NCBI GenBank assembly: GCA_017656425.1 | Contig: JACDNV010000003.1 | Span: 62,001-126,000, forward strand | Reading direction: 5' to 3' | DNA: 64,000 nt | From: Candidatus Neomarinimicrobiota bacterium | GTDB taxonomy: Bacteria > Fidelibacterota > UBA2242 > B5-G15 | Shown: positions 24,176-33,080 of the stretch, piece by piece | Numbering within the stretch: position 1 is the stretch's first letter | Layout of the letters: each line of letters starts with the position of its first letter | The notes under the pieces: model-generated | Seen by the model: the letters and a program-made list of their open reading frames with translations, nothing else | What the model was told of the DNA's origin: nothing | Database searches by the model: none | Translations under genes and position numbers: made by a program

Positions 24176-24490
24176 ATGAATCAACAAATTAATAAATGGG
24201 ACATAGTCTTAATATCAATAAATAAGAATAATCAGCAGATAAAAAGACCTGCTCTTATAGTCTCACCAAATGAATATAACAGAGAAGGTTACTCAGTTAT
24301 ATTCCCTATTACAAGTAATATTAGTAGTATCTCCAATATAGATTACAAAATCAATTTCTGGAAAGAAGCAGGACTACCTAAATCAGCCATTGTAAAATTA
24401 TGGTTTGCTACTATTTCAAATTCTATAATAACAAAGAAAATTGGTACCCTGCATCAGGAAGACATTTTTAATATTTTAAAATTATTATAA
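24176..24490 (+). CDS. MazF/PemK-family toxin, first copy
   Basis: This 104-residue protein has the SH3-like MazF fold: KWDIVLI, KRPALIVSP (catalytic Arg region) and FPITSN (catalytic Thr region). Members are mRNA endonucleases of type II toxin-antitoxin systems. No antitoxin precedes it; the RHH-like gene follows 11 bases after. Compared with the second copy it ends about ten residues early, at the C-terminal helix, so activity is uncertain. No good ribosome site is visible before the ATG. Confidence 0.8.
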   Translation: MNQQINKWDIVLISINKNNQQIKRPALIVSPNEYNREGYSVIFPITSNISSISNIDYKINFWKEAGLPKSAIVKLWFATISNSIITKKIGTLHQEDIFNILKLL

Positions 24491-24501
24491 GGAGATTAAT
24501 T

Positions 24502-24744
24502 ATGGGAGTAATGAGTATTAGAATAAAAGATAAGAATAAAAAGCTACTTAAAATAATTGCATCCTATGAGGGAAAAACAATCGGTGGTTTTATCGAAGAA
24601 CTTCTGGAAGACTATATAGAGAAAAATAAAGATAGGCTCCATTTTCTTACACCGCAGGTAGAGACTTTCGATGTAACAGGTCTTTCAGCACAGGCATTTC
24701 TTGACTGGGATAATAAGGAAGATGAAATCTATGACAAGCTATAA
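24502..24744 (+). CDS. Putative antitoxin with ribbon-helix-helix-like N-terminus
   Basis: The 80-residue protein begins MSIRIKDKNKKLLKIIASYE, a probable RHH DNA-binding strand and helix, and continues GGFIEELLEDYIEKNK. The C-terminal half (FLTPQVETFDVTGLSAQAFLDW) is acidic and would wrap a MazF partner. ATG follows AAGGAGATTAATT. Its end overlaps the second MazF start, the usual antitoxin-before-toxin order. Identification is by context and composition. Confidence 0.65.
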   Translation: MGVMSIRIKDKNKKLLKIIASYEGKTIGGFIEELLEDYIEKNKDRLHFLTPQVETFDVTGLSAQAFLDWDNKEDEIYDKL

Positions 24745-25066
24745 CAAATGGGATATTGTACTTGTAAAATTTCCTTTCACATCTTCAACAACTACTAAAA
24801 AAAGGCCGGCTCTTATCCTGTCAACTAATAAAATCGACGGCACAGAGTCATGTACAATTCTTATGATAACGTCAGACATAAAATCTAAAAATTATGGAGA
24901 CTATACAATAAAAAACTGGCGGGAAGCTGGTTTGCCAAAACCAGCTGTCGTAAAAATGCGTTTTGCAACAATACCAACCAGCATAATAGACAAAAAGATT
25001 AGTCAATTGGACAAGAAAGATATTGATTATATTATTGATAAAATTATTGAGTTCTTAACCCACTAA
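24722..25066 (+). CDS. MazF/PemK-family toxin, second copy
   Basis: The 114-residue protein (from ATG 24722; ATG 24731 is an alternative) has KWDIVLVKFPF, KRPALILST and MITSDI of MazF endoribonucleases. It is clearly related to the copy at 24176 through the shared WREAGLPKPAVVKM-type segment. It overlaps the antitoxin gene by up to 23 bases. Its stop interlocks with the stop of the convergent gene at 25063. Presumed target: single-stranded mRNA at a short motif. Confidence 0.85.
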   Translation: MKSMTSYNKWDIVLVKFPFTSSTTTKKRPALILSTNKIDGTESCTILMITSDIKSKNYGDYTIKNWREAGLPKPAVVKMRFATIPTSIIDKKISQLDKKDIDYIIDKIIEFLTH

Positions 25067-26244
25067 TTCTTTTTTACTGGCATCCAGATTTCTTCTACAA
25101 TCTTAAATTCACCTGGAGTACCTCTTATATATAAAATTTTATATCCTAAATCACTTGATTTATCGGACTTGTAGTGCTGTAAAAACTCGACTCTCCACAG
25201 GTATTTATCCTCACTCAGTATCACTAAATTTTCTGCCTTAATATCAACCCAATTCAACTTGCTGAACACATTTATCTTATAATCAATCCACTTTTTGTAA
25301 TTAAACTTTCCGGACTTAAAAGAATCATCATAGAAATTTTCATATTTATTAATATCAAGCTTCATCCATGAATCAAGCCACTTTCTAACAAAATCCTCCA
25401 AGAGTTCACTTATAATAGTCAGGGAGATTACTTTTTCTTCTTCATAGATAATTTTCCATTTACCCTTTTCAGGCAAAAGTACATAATAACTATTCAGGTT
25501 TTTAACTACTTTATCCGTTAATATGCTAAATTTCGCAAACAAATATGCAAATTCCCCCTGTTGAAAAACCATAGCACTATCGCAATTTACATCCAGCCAC
25601 TTAATCGTATTCTTATCAATTTCTAACTCACTCTTTTTGAAAGATAAACCACGATCAATACTATCCCTGTAATAAATAGAGTAAAGTTCCTTAACCTCTT
25701 CAGGATCTCTGCTATAACGACGATTCACAAACTCTTTTAAATATTCATTCCAATAATGAATTTTACTTCCATAAGTATCATCATCTATAAATTTGATGGT
25801 GTCAACAATAAAAATATTACCATTGGAATTTTGCAGAAACTCAAGAAAAGTAACCAGATTTTTGGATTCTAAATATATAGCTGGATATTTCTTACGTTTA
25901 ACAAAATTTGTTTCAATTATTATAGATTTGCTGATAATATCTCTCGGATAATAGTTTTTTAATAATAACCTATTATTAGTTTGTGTAAGATTGTATACCC
26001 CATTGTCTATTGCACTTTTATCTATTTTTAACGAATCGAGAATTGAAAATCCCTTTATTTTTTCCCATTCCATAAAATATGTTTTTCTAGTACTAGACTC
26101 TAAAATTGTAATATAAGATTCTTTTATTCCTTTTAAATAATATACTCCCTCTATACCTATACCAAAAAGATATACCTCAACATTAATAATTATTGTAAGG
26201 GCGATAATTATGATCTTTAAAAGCCTATTTAAAGTACAATACAT
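25063..26244 (-). CDS. Exported or membrane-anchored protein with NTF2-like C-terminus, function unknown
   Basis: The 393-residue protein starts with a hydrophobic segment (LLKIIIIALTIIINVEVYLFGIGI) that is a signal or anchor. A mixed alpha/beta region of no recognised family follows. The last ~120 residues (FVRKWLDSWMKLDINKYENFY, KWIDYKINVFSK, WRVEFLQHY) resemble the NTF2-like C-terminal domain found in L,D-transpeptidase/Cds6-type envelope proteins, but no catalytic YkuD Cys domain is visible. It is transcribed away from flagellin 1. An envelope role is inferred. Confidence 0.55.
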   Translation of the reverse strand: MYCTLNRLLKIIIIALTIIINVEVYLFGIGIEGVYYLKGIKESYITILESSTRKTYFMEWEKIKGFSILDSLKIDKSAIDNGVYNLTQTNNRLLLKNYYPRDIISKSIIIETNFVKRKKYPAIYLESKNLVTFLEFLQNSNGNIFIVDTIKFIDDDTYGSKIHYWNEYLKEFVNRRYSRDPEEVKELYSIYYRDSIDRGLSFKKSELEIDKNTIKWLDVNCDSAMVFQQGEFAYLFAKFSILTDKVVKNLNSYYVLLPEKGKWKIIYEEEKVISLTIISELLEDFVRKWLDSWMKLDINKYENFYDDSFKSGKFNYKKWIDYKINVFSKLNWVDIKAENLVILSEDKYLWRVEFLQHYKSDKSSDLGYKILYIRGTPGEFKIVEEIWMPVKKN

Positions 26245-26353
26245 CACTAAAAAATAAACTTTTTTTTTCTCACATACAATATCTTAAAATTATTCAAAAT
26301 TGTACAGAAATATGATTATTTATTATTTTTTATTATATAATAAAAATTTTTAC

Positions 26354-26380
26354 TAAAGTTTATAAAAATCTAATCGATAA
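26354..26380 (+). promoter_or_regulatory. Sigma-28 (FliA-type) promoter of flagellin 1
   Basis: TAAA at 26354-26357, a 15-base spacer and ATCGATAA at 26373-26380 match the FliA consensus TAAA-N15-GCCGATAA with only the first two bases of the -10 box differing. It lies about 80 bases before the flagellin start codon, as usual for class 3 flagellar genes. Confidence 0.7.
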
Positions 26381-26422
26381 TACTTATGTGTAATGAATTT
26401 TATTGATTTTTGAAAATTTTTG

Positions 26423-26453
26423 ACAGGGAAGTAAAAGAAAAAAACAGGGAGGT
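26423..26453 (+). promoter_or_regulatory. Two CsrA-like sites in the flagellin 1 leader
   Basis: ACAGGGAAGT (26423-26432) and ACAGGGAGGT (26444-26453, covering the Shine-Dalgarno) each match nine of ten positions of the CsrA consensus ACARGGAUGU. Paired sites, one over the ribosome site, are how CsrA represses the flagellin hag in Bacillus. No csrA or fliW is in the window, and SD sequences resemble this motif by chance. Confidence 0.4.
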
Positions 26454-26459
26454 TAAAAA

Positions 26460-27281
26460 ATGAGTGACCTTTTGAAAATTTACACAAACGTCCAGGCGAT
26501 GAAAGCCCGCATCTCTTTAAACAAGATTAATAGAGAGATGGGAACACTCCAGGTAAGACTTGCAACAGGGAGAAGAATTAACTCTGCTAGTGAGGATCCA
26601 GCGGGATATCACTTAGCAAAAACGCTGGAAAGAAGAAGAAGGGGTTTGGAAGTTGCCCTCCAGAATGTAAGAAATGCCCAGAATATCCTTGATGTTGCCG
26701 AAGGTGCATACCAGAATGTAATGGATATTCTTCAGACACTAAAAGAAAAAGTTACCCAGGCAGCAGACTACAGCCTTTCTTCAACTCAGAGACAGGCTAT
26801 CCAAGCACAATTAAATGCCTTATTGGAAGAGATTGATGATATTGTAAGCGAGACCAAATTCAATGAATCCAACCTTATTAATGGAAATTATAGTGGTTAC
26901 TTTCATACTGGAGAGGGATCAGATGATCAAATGTTTATATCCTTACAAAACGCAGATTCTGCCGCTTTAGGTCTTGATGGTATTTCTCTAAGCACTCAGG
27001 CTGACGCCAGTGCTGCGATAGCATCATTTTCAACTGCTATTGATACTCTTGCTAGCATTATCCAGGATATCGGTGAATATAAAGTAAGGCTTGCCGCCAA
27101 GGAAGATATGCTTGAAGTGGCAATTACAAATACTGACTCTGTACGAAGTACAATTGAAGATGCTGATTTTGCAAAGGAGCAAATGGAGTTGCTTAAATTG
27201 CAAATATTACAACAAACAGCAATAGCATCATTGACACAGGCGAACACTGCCCCCCAGGTGGTACTGAACCTATTCAGATAA
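26460..27281 (+). CDS. fliC: Flagellin 1
   Basis: The 273-residue filament subunit contains only the conserved D0/D1 parts with a short middle: N-terminal VQAMKARISLNKINREMGT and RLATGRRINSASEDPAG, C-terminal STIEDADFAKEQMELLKLQILQQTAIASLTQAN and VVLNLFR (quoted in pieces). It is exported by the flagellar type III system and polymerises outside the cell. It shares length and most motifs with flagellin 2. Expression is likely from the sigma-28 promoter at 26354. Few residues are left for a surface domain, so glycosylation, if any, would be on the short middle region. Confidence 0.95.
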   Translation: MSDLLKIYTNVQAMKARISLNKINREMGTLQVRLATGRRINSASEDPAGYHLAKTLERRRRGLEVALQNVRNAQNILDVAEGAYQNVMDILQTLKEKVTQAADYSLSSTQRQAIQAQLNALLEEIDDIVSETKFNESNLINGNYSGYFHTGEGSDDQMFISLQNADSAALGLDGISLSTQADASAAIASFSTAIDTLASIIQDIGEYKVRLAAKEDMLEVAITNTDSVRSTIEDADFAKEQMELLKLQILQQTAIASLTQANTAPQVVLNLFR

Positions 27282-27338
27282 TCCGCTTTCTGAAAACCAG
27301 AACCTGAAGAATCTTTGAGATAGAGAGGAGGGCATGCA

Positions 27339-27533
27339 ATGTCAAATGGAATAATGAGTGTAAAAGAGGTTGCAAATTATTTGAAAATAAAAGAACAAAC
27401 CGTGTATCGCCTGGTCCAGCAGGGCAAAATCCCAGCTTTGAAAATTGGAGGGCAGTGGAAGATAAAAAAAGAACATATTGACAGGCTATTTGAAGAAATA
27501 CTGAGCGAGAAACTCAGGGAAATAAAGAAATAG
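27339..27533 (+). CDS. Small excisionase/MerR-type HTH DNA-binding protein
   Basis: The 64-residue protein is essentially one winged-HTH module (SVKEVANYLKIKEQTVYRLVQQGKIPALKIGGQWKI in type, about 7-42), as in BldC, excisionase and MerR. It begins 57 bases after flagellin 1 and ends before a terminator, so it is likely in the flagellin 1 transcript. ATG 27339 follows AGGAGGG. There is no phage integrase nearby, so a regulatory role within the flagellar block is inferred. Confidence 0.8.
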   Translation: MSNGIMSVKEVANYLKIKEQTVYRLVQQGKIPALKIGGQWKIKKEHIDRLFEEILSEKLREIKK

Positions 27534-27560
27534 TAACTCCGTTAAAAAAGAAAACAAATT

Positions 27561-27590
27561 GCCCCCTTGCATAATGTAAGGGGGCTTTTT
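27561..27590 (+). terminator. Rho-independent terminator after flagellin 1 and HTH gene
   Basis: GCCCCCTT at 27561-27568 pairs perfectly with AAGGGGGC at 27578-27585 around a nine-base loop and is followed by TTTTTATTTT. This is a strong intrinsic terminator. The next gene's ATG comes only 15 bases after the stem. Confidence 0.9.
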
Positions 27591-27600
27591 ATTTTATATT

Positions 27601-28560
27601 ATGAAAATTTTAACTCTAAACTCCCATGAAGCCTATGTCTGTCTTCTAACAAAACTTGGTTATCCGATCGATATTGTGGACTATCTTCCTGGGAGATATA
27701 CAAAAAAATGGGATGAGAGAATAAGACCCATACCTGAAAACGCAGAACTAATAACTTTAGAGGAAGCTAATAAAAGAAAATATGATGTAATTATAGCACA
27801 TAGTATCACGGACTTACTTGACGTGAAAAATATAGAAGCACCAAAAATATTAAAAATAGATGTATCTCTAACAGGATATATTCACCAGCAAGGAAGTACT
27901 GTAAAACCTCAGGATGTCATAAGTGCTTTAAAAATTTATATAGATAAATTTAAAATTATTCCAGTATCCACCTCAGAAATGAAAGCAAAAACTTGGGGAC
28001 TTGAAGACTGCATTATTGTGCCATTGACTGTTGATACGGACTTTTTCTCCGGGTATACAGGTGAAATATCTGCAGGATTGAGAATAGCAAACCAGATAGC
28101 TCAGAAATCACTCATATATGACATAGGATTTTTTATCAAAGTTATTGAAAAGCTTCCATTTAAAATTGTTGGTTACAACCCTGAATTACCTGATGTAGAA
28201 CCTGCCAGGGATATAAACGAACTAAGAGAACAATATCAAAAACACAGATTTTACCTTCATACTGCCAGATACGATTACGAAGATGGCTTTAATCTTGCCT
28301 CACTGGAAGCAATGTCCACTGGAATGCCCATCCTGACAAACCAGCATCCAAGTTCACCAGTCATCAATGGAATCAATGGATTCTCATCAAATGATCCACA
28401 TGAGCTAACTCAATATGCTTTGGAGCTTCTGAATGACCGAAATCTTGCAATAAGACTTGGTAAAAATGCAAGAGAATACGTCATAGAGAACCACAATTTT
28501 CAAAAATTTAAAGAAGGATGGGAACACGCCATTTATACCGCCATTATGAAATTTTCATGA
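27601..28560 (+). CDS. GT4-like glycosyltransferase located between the flagellin genes
   Basis: The 319-residue protein resembles a GT-B fold glycosyltransferase. The C-terminal half has the GT4 donor-site pattern (TARYDYEDGFNLASLEAMSTGMPILT, shown by type), with Glu residues for nucleotide-sugar binding. Its location between two flagellin genes suggests it glycosylates flagellin, but the sequence does not show this. The ATG follows a terminator T-run with no visible ribosome site; the transcript may be leaderless or rely on readthrough. No signal peptide; cytoplasmic. Confidence 0.75.
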   Translation: MKILTLNSHEAYVCLLTKLGYPIDIVDYLPGRYTKKWDERIRPIPENAELITLEEANKRKYDVIIAHSITDLLDVKNIEAPKILKIDVSLTGYIHQQGSTVKPQDVISALKIYIDKFKIIPVSTSEMKAKTWGLEDCIIVPLTVDTDFFSGYTGEISAGLRIANQIAQKSLIYDIGFFIKVIEKLPFKIVGYNPELPDVEPARDINELREQYQKHRFYLHTARYDYEDGFNLASLEAMSTGMPILTNQHPSSPVINGINGFSSNDPHELTQYALELLNDRNLAIRLGKNAREYVIENHNFQKFKEGWEHAIYTAIMKFS

Positions 28561-28727
28561 TTTTTATAATTATTCATATAATTTTATTGTTGTTTACTTA
28601 AATTAACATAAATTTATTCAATAATTACAAATCCTTATATATTCAATTTATTAAACTGCAAATTTAATTATTTTTAGTAAACTTTTATCCCACATAACTA
28701 TCACTACCACCTAAAATCAGCCATTTT
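28561..28727. other. AT-rich intergenic stretch before the flagellin 2 promoter
   Basis: This is very AT-rich sequence between the glycosyltransferase stop and the flagellin 2 promoter, within a 329-base non-coding gap. I see no ORF and no strong hairpin here; the functional elements of the gap lie after 28727. Confidence 0.5.
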
Positions 28728-28755
28728 TAATCAACCCTAATATCATAATCGATAT
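28728..28755 (+). promoter_or_regulatory. Candidate sigma-28 promoter of flagellin 2
   Basis: TAAT at 28728 and ATCGATAT at 28748-28755 resemble the flagellin 1 promoter, with the same CGATA core but one extra spacer base and a less perfect -35 box. Confidence 0.45.
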
Positions 28756-28830
28756 TATTAGCAGGTGATTTTTGAAATTCTAAGGAGTGAGGGTGGCACT
28801 CTTTAGAACAAAAATTTTAAACCACCAGAG

Positions 28831-28870
28831 TGGCAAGCCAGAATGGCAAGCCAAAATGGCAAGGAAGCCA
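28831..28870 (+). repeat. Triple TGGC-GCCA palindromic repeat in the flagellin 2 leader
   Basis: TGGCAAGCCA occurs at 28831 and 28844, and TGGCAAGGAAGCCA at 28857. The period is 13 bases. Each unit is an inverted repeat; the third forms a TGGC/GCCA stem with an AAGGAA loop, the shape of a CsrA site. It ends 10 bases before the Shine-Dalgarno. Three copies suggest an mRNA control element, perhaps a protein-binding hairpin array. Confidence 0.6.
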
Positions 28871-28889
28871 AAAAAACAAGGAGGTTAAA

Positions 28890-29711
28890 ATGGGTGAATT
28901 AATGCAAATTGCCGCAAACATTCAAGCAATGTGGGCTTATCAATCATTGGACAACATTAACAAAGAGTTAGGTATCAGAACGCTGAGACTTTCCACTGGT
29001 AAAAAGATTAACTCAACAGAAGAAGACCCTGCTGGTTATCAACTTGCAAGAACCCTTGAAAGAAGAAGAAGAGGACTGGAAGTTGCACTCCAGAATGTAG
29101 AGAACGCACAGAGCGTCCTAAATGTTGCAGAGGGAGGATATCAGAACATAATGGACATTCTCCAAACTTTAAAGGAAAAAGCCACTCAGGCAGCTGATTA
29201 TTCACTGTCGGATGTTCAAAGATCCGCAATTCAGGACCAAGTTGAGGCACTAATATCAGAAATCGATGACATCGTCAGTGAGACAACATTTAATAATGAC
29301 CAACTGATTGATGGAGGTTATTCGGGTTATTTTCAAACAGGTGAGGAATCATCTAACCAGCTGTTAGTGTCATTAAAAGATGCAGATTCAGCAGCACTGG
29401 GAATTAACAGTATTAATGTTTCATCATCTGCAAGCGCAAGTGCTGCAATTGGAACTCTCTCATCCGCTATCGATAACTTAGCCAGCTACATACAGGATGT
29501 TGGTGAATTCAAAGTAAGGCTATCTTCAAAAGAACAAACTCTATCTGTAGCCATAACTAATACTGAGGCTGTAAGAAGTACCATTGAAGATGCTGACTTC
29601 GCAAAAGAACAAATGGAGGTAATGAAGCTACAAATCCTACAGCAAACCGCTGTGGCAAGCTATGTGCAGGCAAATACGTCACCACAGATTGTACTCACAC
29701 TATTCAGATAA
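28890..29711 (+). CDS. fliC: Flagellin 2
   Basis: The second 273-residue flagellin is the same length as flagellin 1: N-terminal NIQAMWAYQSLDNINKELG and STGKKINSTEEDPAG, C-terminal RSTIEDADFAKEQMEVMKLQ and TSPQIVLTLFR. The central variable region is short, so it is a minimal D0/D1 flagellin. ATG 28890 is set by AAGGAGGT (28878-28885); the longer frame from GTG 28830 reads through the repeat and has no support. The two differ mainly in charge and polar positions, so a mixed or sequential filament is possible. Confidence 0.95.
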   Translation: MGELMQIAANIQAMWAYQSLDNINKELGIRTLRLSTGKKINSTEEDPAGYQLARTLERRRRGLEVALQNVENAQSVLNVAEGGYQNIMDILQTLKEKATQAADYSLSDVQRSAIQDQVEALISEIDDIVSETTFNNDQLIDGGYSGYFQTGEESSNQLLVSLKDADSAALGINSINVSSSASASAAIGTLSSAIDNLASYIQDVGEFKVRLSSKEQTLSVAITNTEAVRSTIEDADFAKEQMEVMKLQILQQTAVASYVQANTSPQIVLTLFR

Positions 29712-29740
29712 TAGTTATGCTGATAAAACAGGTAAAAATA

Positions 29741-29779
29741 GGAAGGAGAGGGAAGATAATTCCCTCTCCTTCCATTTTT
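29741..29779 (+). terminator. Strong terminator after flagellin 2
   Basis: GGAAGGAGAGGGAA (29741-29754) pairs perfectly with its complement at 29760-29773, leaving a five-base loop, and is followed by ATTTTTG. The 14-bp stem isolates flagellin 2 from the fliS operon. Confidence 0.93.
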
Positions 29780-29874
29780 GTTAGAATACTTTTTAAAATA
29801 TCAACTAATATGATATATCTTATTAATAATCAGTAAATTACATTGTGTTATTTTCGTAATAATATAGACTATTA

Positions 29875-29890
29875 TGGCACGATAGTTGAA
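29875..29890 (+). promoter_or_regulatory. Sigma-54-like -24/-12 box before fliS
   Basis: TGGCACGATAGTTGAA matches the sigma-54 consensus TGGCACGNNNNTTGCW except for the base after TTG (A for C, usually well conserved). Transcription would start only a few bases before the ribosome site AAGGAGAGG. Presence of rpoN and an activator is unknown. Confidence 0.4.
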
Positions 29891-29909
29891 GTTAAAAGGA
29901 GAGGAAAAA

Positions 29910-30239
29910 ATGAGAGGTGGTTTCGATATGGCACGTCAAGAAAATCCAAATCCGTACCTGAAACATAAAGTGATGACTGCTTCACCAGAAGAACTTGTTT
30001 CTTATGTTTATGACATCGCAATAAAAGCTTGTAAAGTAAAGAATAAAATAAAGGCATTAGAAGCTATGCAGGTACTAATAAATTCTTTAAACTTCGATGA
30101 AAAAGAGATGGCAATGACATTTTTCAACGTATATCGCTATATAAGCAAATTAATTCGTGAAAATCAATTTAACGAAGCAGAAATTTATTTAACTGATATA
30201 AAAAATACATGGGAAAAAGCCATGAAAATTAGTATATAA
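29910..30239 (+). CDS. fliS: FliS, flagellin export chaperone
   Basis: The 109-residue protein is a helical FliS: NPYLKHKVMTASPEELVSYVYDIAIKAC (by type) at the start, and MTFFNVYRYISKLI and NTWEKAMKISI later. FliS binds the C-terminus of flagellin and keeps it unfolded for export. ATG 29910 follows AAGGAGAGG; ATG 29928 (MARQENPN) with GAGAGGTGG upstream is also plausible and would give 103 residues. It heads the fliS-fliD-flaG block, separated from flagellin 2 by a terminator. Confidence 0.87.
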   Translation: MRGGFDMARQENPNPYLKHKVMTASPEELVSYVYDIAIKACKVKNKIKALEAMQVLINSLNFDEKEMAMTFFNVYRYISKLIRENQFNEAEIYLTDIKNTWEKAMKISI

Positions 30240-30254
30240 ATTTCGAGGTAAATT

Positions 30255-31736
30255 ATGGATATTACTTCCATATTTGACTCCAAATATAATATAGATTACC
30301 TCGTAGAAATATATATGGCACAGGAATCAAAGCCTAAAAAGGAGCTCGAAGAGCAAAAAGAAGCACTAAACCAGAAAAAAGAGGTTCTAAATAACTTAGA
30401 CAGCAAAATGTCAGCTCTAAAAAGCATTGTTGATAGATTAACTGATCCTATTACAAACTACTTTGCACAAAAATCAGCCACAAGCAGTGATACTGAAAAA
30501 TTCACGGTTTCTGCTGGTGCAAGCGCTACAGCCGGTACCCATTCAATAAGCGTGGAAAGACTTGCATCCTCAGATACCAGAGTTTCAAAACAGTTTACAG
30601 ACACAGATACAAGCTTTACAGGATTTACAACCGATCAAACTTTTTACATTGAAGTAGCGCATCCTACAGATTCTGATCCAAATAATCGGGTTTCAATAGA
30701 AATTACAGTTTCAGCCAGTACATTTTCACAAAATGATGACGATGTGCTTGCTGACATCGCAGAAGCAATTAATTCTGCAATGAGTAATGCCGTTCTAAAT
30801 GAAACAATTGATAATGATGAAGTAGTACACGCTTATGTTGTAAGTGAAGAATCAGGAAAGTCCAGGCTAGTATTAAGATCCGAAAACTCAGGATATACTT
30901 ATAGAATGGATTTTACTGATAGCTCAGATAACCTACTGAATTTTCTTGAAGTTAACAGTGGTTCACAGTCAAGTGGTTCATCCGGAGGATGGATTACCTA
31001 TGTTGGTACCAGTCCAACCGATAGTGAACTCAATTCAAAATTTAATATAGATGGTCTAACATTTTACAGAGATAGTAATCATGTAACAGATGTACTAAGC
31101 GGACTTACAATTGATTTACTTGATACATTTTCAACTGAGGAAACCATAACAGTCACTTCAGATACAGAGGCGGTAAAGGAAGAAGTTCAGGACTTCATAG
31201 ATGCTTACAATGACCTATTAGATTTTCTGAAAGAGAATACTCAAATTAATCCTGATACTTACAATAGGGGACTACTTACAGATGAACTTACCTATAAGAA
31301 CATAATATACGACTTAAGAAATTACATCATGAGCGAGGTAACTGGGGTAACCAACACTGACTATAACTATTTATTCAAAATAGGAATTGAACCTGATGAA
31401 GATGGAAAGCTTTCTATAGCTGATAGTGAGGAATTTGAAGAAGCACTCGAAGCTAATTATACCAATGTCTCTGACCTATTTAGAGCAACTGATGGAATAG
31501 CAACAAGAATAAAGGATTATATTGAAAGATTCGTTACAGTTGGCGGGACAATAGATAAAAGTATAAATAATTTAGAAAGTCAGATTTCAAGTGTAGAAGA
31601 TAGAATCGATGCATGGGATGAAATATTAGCAAAAAGAGAACAGCAACTAAGAGACGAATTTGCAAAATTACAGGAAATGATGACTTCACTGACATATCAA
31701 CTAAATTATTTTAGTAATTTCTTTAAAATATCATAA
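30255..31736 (+). CDS. fliD: FliD, filament cap protein
   Basis: The 493-residue protein has the FliD N-terminal coiled coil (IFDSKYNIDYLVEIYMAQES, then EEQKEALNQKKEVLNNLDS) and a C-terminal coiled coil (SINNLESQISSVEDRIDAWD, then REQQLRDEFAKLQEMMTSLT). The middle is Ser/Thr-rich beta-like sequence. FliD caps the growing filament and admits flagellin monomers. ATG 30255 follows GAGGT. Its place between fliS and flaG is usual for filament genes. Confidence 0.92.
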   Translation: MDITSIFDSKYNIDYLVEIYMAQESKPKKELEEQKEALNQKKEVLNNLDSKMSALKSIVDRLTDPITNYFAQKSATSSDTEKFTVSAGASATAGTHSISVERLASSDTRVSKQFTDTDTSFTGFTTDQTFYIEVAHPTDSDPNNRVSIEITVSASTFSQNDDDVLADIAEAINSAMSNAVLNETIDNDEVVHAYVVSEESGKSRLVLRSENSGYTYRMDFTDSSDNLLNFLEVNSGSQSSGSSGGWITYVGTSPTDSELNSKFNIDGLTFYRDSNHVTDVLSGLTIDLLDTFSTEETITVTSDTEAVKEEVQDFIDAYNDLLDFLKENTQINPDTYNRGLLTDELTYKNIIYDLRNYIMSEVTGVTNTDYNYLFKIGIEPDEDGKLSIADSEEFEEALEANYTNVSDLFRATDGIATRIKDYIERFVTVGGTIDKSINNLESQISSVEDRIDAWDEILAKREQQLRDEFAKLQEMMTSLTYQLNYFSNFFKIS

Positions 31737-31752
31737 CGCGAGAGGATAAACC

Positions 31753-32139
31753 ATGGATGGTTTAGAACCTATTGAATACAGTTTCAAGGCCAGTGTAGTT
31801 ATCAATTCAACTGATACTTCAAAAAATGAAACACAGGAAGTGACCACGCAGAAAGAAGAGCTAAAAAAACCTGATAAAGAAATAAGATCCGAGTCAAAAG
31901 AAATAAATACATCCAGAGTTGATATGGGAGAAATAGTCGCACAGTTAAATGAAGTCATTAAGGTCTTTAACACAAAAATCACATTTTCCTACGACCCAAG
32001 GATAGAAAGATCTGTTATTGTAGTTACAGACTCTACTACTGGAGAAGTTATAAGAAAAATTCCGCCAGAAGAAATGATACTACTTATTTCCAAACTTAGA
32101 GAGATAGCAGGTCTTTTGTATAATAAAAAAGTATCCTGA
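31753..32139 (+). CDS. flaG: FlaG family flagellar protein
   Basis: The 128-residue protein has a disordered, charged N-terminus (about 1-60) and the FlaG domain at the end: VTDSTTGEVIRKIPPEEMILL and KLREIAGLLY. FlaG limits or adjusts filament length in other bacteria. GAGAGG lies before the ATG. It begins just 16 bases after fliD and belongs to the same transcript. Confidence 0.9.
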   Translation: MDGLEPIEYSFKASVVINSTDTSKNETQEVTTQKEELKKPDKEIRSESKEINTSRVDMGEIVAQLNEVIKVFNTKITFSYDPRIERSVIVVTDSTTGEVIRKIPPEEMILLISKLREIAGLLYNKKVS

Positions 32140-32145
32140 GTTTAT

Positions 32146-32562
32146 ATGAAAAAGGATAATAAAGACACGGATACTACCCTAAAAAGAGTAGAAGATATAG
32201 TATCGCAAATTTTAATTATAAGTGAAAACTCCTTATATCAGGAAAATTATGATCTGGATTTAATAAATAAAACCCTTGAAAAAAGAGGGAAATTATTTGA
32301 AGAGCTAATGCAATATGAAGACAAGGTTAAGTTTATCATAAATCTGCCGGAAGATAAGAATATAGAACAAAAAATAAATGATATAAAAAATAAAATAAAA
32401 AAAATAGAAGAAATCGATAAAGAAGTGATAAAATTTTTAAAGGAAAAGAAAGAAAAAACCATTAAAGAAATTTCAAAAATAACCGATATTAAAAGTAGAA
32501 GATATAATTCTTTGACATCTATAGGTATAAAACCTAAATTTTTTGATATTAAACAGAGGTAA
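32146..32562 (+). CDS. FliT/FlgN-like flagellar chaperone candidate
   Basis: The 138-residue protein is entirely helical and lysine/glutamate-rich, with a leucine heptad pattern and a C-terminus IKPKFFDIKQ like that of FliT and FlgN proteins (ending near FFD). Position after fliS-fliD-flaG is where fliT usually lies; FliT binds FliD. Sequence resemblance is weak, so the assignment is by context and shape. ATG lies six bases after the flaG stop; no clear ribosome site. Confidence 0.5.
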   Translation: MKKDNKDTDTTLKRVEDIVSQILIISENSLYQENYDLDLINKTLEKRGKLFEELMQYEDKVKFIINLPEDKNIEQKINDIKNKIKKIEEIDKEVIKFLKEKKEKTIKEISKITDIKSRRYNSLTSIGIKPKFFDIKQR

Positions 32563-32564
32563 CT

Positions 32565-33080
32565 TTGAGTTACGTAAATAACATAAATCCTTTAAATAAC
32601 TCATATCAGAAGATTGAAGAAAAAGAGGATATCAAGAAATCCAAGCCTGATTCTGAAAAGGTAAAAAATGATAGTACAGGACTGGAAAAAACAGGCAAGA
32701 TTGCATCCGATAGAGCAGAAATATCCCAGGCCGCTAAAACCCTTTACGAATACAGTATAAAGAATAATAAATACAAAGAACTATTTCAGAAAAAAAATCT
32801 ACTTGATCAGAACGAAATACAGAAAATAAAGGAAAAAATAGAAAGCAATTTTTATAACCAGGATAACGTATTGAACAAAGTTGCGGAATCGCTATTAGCA
32901 CTGCCCACTTTCAGTAAAATAATTCAAAAACATTCACTCGATAAAGTGAATCAGAGGGAAAGGGAAGAAAAATTAGCCAAGACAAAAGAGAAGATAGAAA
33001 ATAAGGAATATGAAAAAGACGAAGTTATAGACAAGCTGGCTGAAAAAATTATCCAGCAAATACGTAATTCTCAGATATAA
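32565..33080 (+). CDS. FlgM-like anti-sigma-28 protein with a duplicated module
   Basis: The 171-residue protein has a disordered N-terminus, then DRAEISQAAKTLYEY (about 49-63), as in FlgM, and IQKIKEKIESNFYNQDNVLN with KVAESLL (85-111), matching the sigma-binding helices of FlgM. A second copy (LAKTKEKIENKEYEKDEVID, KLAEKII) follows at 137-163, 52 residues later. FlgM holds sigma-28 until export of FlgM with flagellar completion. The start is TTG at 32565 with AGAGGT upstream. The double module is unusual; it might bind two sigma factors or one more tightly. Confidence 0.65.
   Translation: MSYVNNINPLNNSYQKIEEKEDIKKSKPDSEKVKNDSTGLEKTGKIASDRAEISQAAKTLYEYSIKNNKYKELFQKKNLLDQNEIQKIKEKIESNFYNQDNVLNKVAESLLALPTFSKIIQKHSLDKVNQREREEKLAKTKEKIENKEYEKDEVIDKLAEKIIQQIRNSQI

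Follow-up and report, generated by a model that had tools for sequence, protein, structure and literature searches.

Why would a bacterium place three near-identical short palindromes immediately before the ribosome-binding site of a flagellin gene? The leader that raises this question precedes the second of two flagellin genes in the window, by which we mean the whole 64-kb stretch of DNA analysed, part of a 2.8-Mb, 50-contig assembly. Its features are collected in Table 1.

Table 1. Features of the flagellin 2 leader, with positions counted along the window
Feature	Position	Strand	Basis or remark
CGATA, candidate -10 core of a sigma-28-type promoter	28750-28754	+	Among 102 leaders, 65 distinct ones have CGATA 75-150 nt ahead of the start
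boxA-like GATTTTTGAAA near the predicted 5' end	28767-28777	+	17 nt after CGATA; putative function
Predicted H-type pseudoknot	28778-28826	+	Crossing helices S1 and S2
Stem S1 (28778-28789 / 28797-28808), loop AGGGTGG (28790-28796)	28778-28808	+	12 pairs
S2 5' arm GGTGG	28792-28796	+	Pairs with CCACC
AACCACC: S2 3' arm CCACC (28822-28826) and alternative anti-Shine-Dalgarno strand	28820-28826	+	Folding, pairing comparison
Three 13-bp tandem repeats: CCAGAGTGGCAAG, CCAGAATGGCAAG, CCAAAATGGCAAG	28825-28863	+	Tandem Repeats Finder
Unit 1, TGGCAAGCCA	28831-28840	+	No GGA
Unit 2, TGGCAAGCCA	28844-28853	+	No GGA
Units 1 and 2	28831-28853	+	Predicted mutual pairing as one spacer hairpin
Unit 3, TGGCAAGGAAGCCA: CsrA-type hairpin TGGC AAGGAA GCCA, GGA 28863-28865	28857-28870	+	GGA hairpin in register in 72 of 101 leaders
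Shine-Dalgarno region ACAAGGAGGTT, second GGA 28880-28882	28876-28886	+	17 nt from the first GGA
Flagellin 2	28890-29711	+	PF00669 and PF00700 over cut-off

Origin of the repeats

An earlier note on this DNA had described a three-copy palindrome array just before the Shine-Dalgarno sequence. The units are indeed there at a 13-base period, TGGCAAGCCA at 28831 and 28844 and TGGCAAGGAAGCCA at 28857, and unit 3 ends 9 bases before GGAGG at 28880. The array is nevertheless better described as three tandem 13-mers than as palindromes. Tandem Repeats Finder returns three copies of CCAGAATGGCAAG with 92% matches, the copies agreeing at 11-12 of 13 positions; TGGCAAGCCA is created at each junction, where ...TGGCAAG abuts CCA..., and GAAGCCA comes solely after the last copy, yielding TGGCAAGGAAGCCA. 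Our scan for 3-copy, 13-bp arrays of this kind found a single case in the window, and 20 block shuffles yielded none; across the whole 2.8-Mb genome the double unit TGGCAAGCCANNNTGGCAAG, with up to two mismatches allowed, has matches inside the array only. As separate hairpins, units 1 and 2 would leave two-base loops; they are predicted instead to fold together into a single hairpin of 8 bp, interrupted by an AA/AA internal loop (probability 0.66-1.0).

The earlier note had tied the function of the array to its presence in orthologous leaders, and units 1 and 2 are missing from the leader of the closest relative (L003), the sole other genome of the family compared, whose flagellin is 82% identical. 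Removing two 13-mers raises the alignment score to this relative from 32.7 to 38.9, partly via the lost gap penalty, and reduces the distance between the upstream pseudoknot and unit 3 to 4 nt, the 26-bp expansion accounting for the rest of the observed 30 nt. Judged by the repeat pattern and this one relative, a 13-mer was most likely duplicated by slippage, with units 1 and 2 as by-products that add a spacer hairpin and would have no CsrA role; the repeat expansion itself is ordinary. A mild effect is possible, since in a nested folding model the Shine-Dalgarno sequence is predicted to be slightly more paired when units 1 and 2 are present, its first G being unpaired with a probability of 0.23 with them and 0.47 without.

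Could the three units nevertheless work together to bind or titrate CsrA? They are alike and the last is a CsrA-type hairpin, but the first two carry no GGA motif, are predicted to form a joint hairpin and do not occur in the closest relative compared, and we regard a titration array as very improbable; a functional three-unit array was rejected on the missing GGA and the absence of these units from the relative. Scarcely credible is the reading in which the array codes for an N-terminal flagellin extension starting at an in-frame GTG at 28830: the reading frame is open from there, but a strong ACAAGGAGG lies directly before the ATG at 28890, the repeat is absent in the closest relative, and the stop-to-stop frame of that relative is 279 aa against a 273-aa match, leaving no space for an extension.

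A CsrA-type hairpin before the Shine-Dalgarno sequence

Unit 3 consists of a 4-bp stem and the hexaloop AAGGAA, a hairpin that the earlier note had proposed and that folding returns with a pair probability of 0.77-0.97. We collected 102 leaders from this genome and its relatives (101 distinct, both window leaders included) and scored GGA hairpins as in register when two loop bases precede GGA and one follows. The loci with related flagellins belong mainly to metagenome genomes whose titles name Neomarinimicrobiota (Marinimicrobia) or Calditrichota. Such a hairpin is present in 72 of the 101 distinct leaders, with at least four pairs in 67, whereas 3.9% and 1.4%, respectively, of dinucleotide shuffles (n=5050) have one; the strict form is missing in 29 of 101, and a looser search finds a GGA hairpin in 91 of 102. 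The stem pairs change yet stay paired (19 distinct 4-nt 5' arms), and the first loop base is A in 67 of the 72 hairpins. The second GGA, within the Shine-Dalgarno sequence, lies 17 nt downstream here, 17-27 nt downstream in 63 of the 72 and 17-47 nt in all of them. CsrA can bridge sites 10-63 nt apart, and SELEX favoured GGA within six-base loops, according to the available part of the source (PMC7652899).

Four of the 29 leaders without the strict hairpin (L050, L098, L115 and L116), read by eye, keep a stem at this position with a loop that has no GGA, as if these flagellin copies were escaping CsrA. For flagellin 1, also in the window, the leader offers only a weak GGA hairpin that is out of register, and its best pseudoknot is not significant.

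A probable CsrA-FliW-flagellin circuit

Not far past the window's right-hand end, at 0.7-1.3 kb, lie csrA (E 7.7e-24) and fliW (E 1.4e-13), whose products match the chains of the FliW-CsrA entry 5dmb by sequence (E 2.3e-12 and 6.9e-5); together with a flagellin-like gene, taken for a putative flgL, they span 0.7 to 2.3 kb past that end. HTH_17 and glycosyltransferase genes separate the two flagellins, and flagellin 2 is followed by genes for FliS, FliD and FlaG family proteins. The earlier note had named CsrA or the adjacent HTH protein as possible binders of the array. CsrA fits unit 3, given the hexaloop, the second GGA, the csrA and fliW genes and the conserved hairpin, whereas the HTH protein matches HTH_17 and nothing in the analysis ties it to the leader RNA; HTH_17 proteins are usually DNA-binding. 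The HTH_17 gene (PF12728) occupies 27339-27533, and inspection by eye showed a similar gene next to flagellins in L005, L006 and L024.

The hairpin, its spacing, its conservation and the csrA and fliW genes together make it, in our judgement, highly probable that this is a flagellin mRNA 5' leader under CsrA-FliW-flagellin feedback, probably transcribed from a sigma-28-type promoter, with a predicted pseudoknot upstream and with units 1 and 2 as slippage by-products. In this reading, a CsrA dimer would hold unit 3 by its AAGGAA loop and reach across 17 nt to the GGA inside the Shine-Dalgarno sequence, shutting out ribosomes for as long as it is bound; flagellin export would free FliW, which would then pull CsrA off. 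The circuit is already known. Our literature search, in which subscription journals are thinly covered, found no work on CsrA in Neomarinimicrobiota. The present leader would extend the circuit to a largely uncultured group, on sequence evidence.

Two known leaders offer close comparisons. Bacillus subtilis hag has two CsrA sites, one of them over the Shine-Dalgarno sequence, and fliW and csrA are adjacent, as here; the available part of the source, however, mentions neither a pseudoknot nor a 13-bp repeat for the hag leader (PMC7652899). Campylobacter jejuni flaA likewise combines a GGA in a hexaloop hairpin with a GGA over the ribosome site, the two standing in hexaloops 21 nt apart, but its leader, as described in the part of the source available (PMC4894983), is 45 nt long with two stem-loops, whereas ours would measure ~125 nt from the predicted start and has the upstream pseudoknot and the repeat expansion.

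A predicted pseudoknot upstream and its recurrence in related leaders

The predicted pseudoknot has an S1 of 12 bp, an S2 of 5 bp and loops L1, L2 and L3 of 2, 0 and 13 nt, and was matched by 2 of 1000 shuffles of the window leader (L002) and by 0 of 1000 in the closest relative. Its dimensions can be compared with those of long-stem H-type pseudoknots, from which its setting differs, a bacterial 5' leader with a CsrA-type hairpin downstream. Between window and relative, three of the 12 S1 pairs are changed on both sides and none is broken, against 0 two-sided changes in slid versions, a covariation that 74 of 500 shuffles reach with just two sequences; the two leaders share an unchanged AGGGTGG loop and downstream AAACCACC, and S2 shows no compensatory change between the window leader and this sole close homologue.

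Is the structure peculiar to this lineage? We searched the 85 nt before the CsrA hairpin for crossing helices and grouped the leaders by genus labels. Comparable predicted pseudoknots were found at p<=0.02 in 25 of 101 leaders against 10 of 243 control regions drawn from the same loci and the window, with 300 shuffles each (Fisher 6e-8, a value that treats the leaders as independent, which they are not, one genus supplying 10 of the 25 and a second one 5). The ten control positives, among which we kept one (L005_561) that overlaps another flagellin leader on the opposite strand, indicate that the shuffle null is about twofold too lenient, and the excess still stands; a smaller control of 20 regions, too small to be informative, gave 0 at p<=0.05. 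Eleven of 29 groups (28 genera and one pooled) pass Sidak at 0.05; g80, one of the eleven, does so on the strength of L097 and L119, whose pseudoknots look unrelated. The pooled 12 Calditrichota and other leaders gave 0 at p<=0.02.

Position, more than sequence, is what these structures share. In 22 of the 25, from nine genera, the pseudoknot ends 1-5 nt before the CsrA hairpin, as against 11 of 46 leaders with p>0.2; the other three are the window, at 30 nt, L097, at 20, and L119, at 18. The helix sequences differ between genera and groups while the position is kept, and for the crossing helix S2 the alignments suggest modest pair covariation. S2 pairs are changed on both sides in three other groups (1, 1 and 2 pairs), although the second group counts 2 two-sided pairs over the whole structure against 4 and 3 in versions slid by -3 and +3. 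In two groups no shuffle out of 500 reaches the covariation score; 20 do in the group where slid versions have as many two-sided changes or more. L050 and L103 break parts of S2. The pseudoknot would be a second structural module that recurs beside the CsrA hairpin while its sequence changes.

No Rfam match above the gathering score was found in window positions 25000-33000 or in 20 related loci, the weak matches falling outside the leaders, and a recurring pseudoknot beside a CsrA hairpin is undescribed in the titles and abstract openings that we found, among which subscription journals are thinly covered. We take these negatives as weak evidence that the pseudoknot is new.

Switch or stabilizer?

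What might such a pseudoknot do? One possibility, which we consider doubtful, is a switch in which the AACCACC strand pairs either with GGTGG in the S1 loop, leaving the Shine-Dalgarno sequence free, or with GGAGGTT, covering it, so that translation follows the choice and CsrA acts on top. For two of the stretches tried, the minimum-energy structure from RNAfold, which is blind to pseudoknots, has AACCACC paired with GGAGGUU, and both pairing options are kept, and are longer, in the closest relative, where the anti-Shine-Dalgarno pairing is AAACCACCC/GGGAGGUUU. Pairing with the Shine-Dalgarno region is equalled by 1 of 69 other segments of the same leader and 10 of 500 shuffled arms in the window leader, and by 0 of 66 and 12 of 500 in the relative; the duplex energies, in the same order, are -8.7 and -12.0 kcal/mol for S2 and -6.7 and -9.9 kcal/mol for the anti-Shine-Dalgarno helix. 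The pseudoknot, however, sits further 5' and is favoured in both leaders. Moreover, only five of the 25 pseudoknot leaders fall in the top 5% of their own segments and two of the 25 beat 95% of shuffled arms, so the pairing is not general, and we rejected it as a rule for pseudoknot leaders. A switch would be confined at most to the lineage of the window and perhaps one other.

Quite possible, though short of probable, is that the pseudoknot mainly stabilizes the 5' end of a very abundant mRNA, with no regulatory switch. S1 would start ~15 nt from the predicted 5' end, and helix sequences vary between genera at a constant position, as such a role would allow. A plain hairpin would suffice for that purpose, however, and the 1-5 nt gap suggests a connection with the CsrA hairpin. 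In the CsrA-FliW model that we prefer, the pseudoknot would probably keep the 5' region clear of the site of CsrA and the ribosome, and with it the AACCACC strand, which could cover the Shine-Dalgarno sequence; perhaps it also protects the 5' end.

Candidate promoter, boxA-like element and a possible composite leader

The candidate -10 core was judged against the sigma-28 consensus, and no clear -35 was seen for it in this leader. Downstream of CGATA, many related leaders carry a further short box, which we take to resemble boxA. A match to GTTNTTTGAAA stands at an offset of 14-18 from CGATA in 20 of 65 leaders. A GUUNUUUGAAA-like box (at least 8 of 10 positions) occurs in 38 of the 65 CGATA leaders against 13% of shuffles, in nine of them at 23; shuffles place 0.9% at 15-19. 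Because the pattern was derived from the same leaders, there is some circularity in the overall count, and less in the fixed position. The rrn leaders of two relatives contain ATTTTTGAAAT and CTTTTTGACAA, similar to the box by eye, and no rRNA for such a comparison was found in the assembly itself. Across 12 genomes, sites with the promoter-box pattern lie mostly away from flagellins, a result that does not decide the boxA question.

We speculate that a boxA-like 5' element, an H-type pseudoknot and, shortly downstream, a CsrA hairpin ahead of the Shine-Dalgarno sequence form a composite leader, not described before, on flagellin mRNAs in a Neomarinimicrobiota-like phylum. The pseudoknot would position the CsrA hairpin and, in this lineage, withhold the anti-Shine-Dalgarno strand, and the boxA-like element would keep transcription going under the CsrA block. 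We hold this full combination to be unlikely; if it is true, flagellin output would be set jointly by RNA folding and CsrA-FliW.

Other observations in the window

Behind flagellin 2, at 29743-29782, stands a strong, GGA-rich, terminator-like hairpin followed by ATTTTTGTT; a weak match to the CsrC model, far below cut-off, falls over it. At 24176-25066, two related proteins, presumably MazF/PemK-like, flank a short possible antitoxin.
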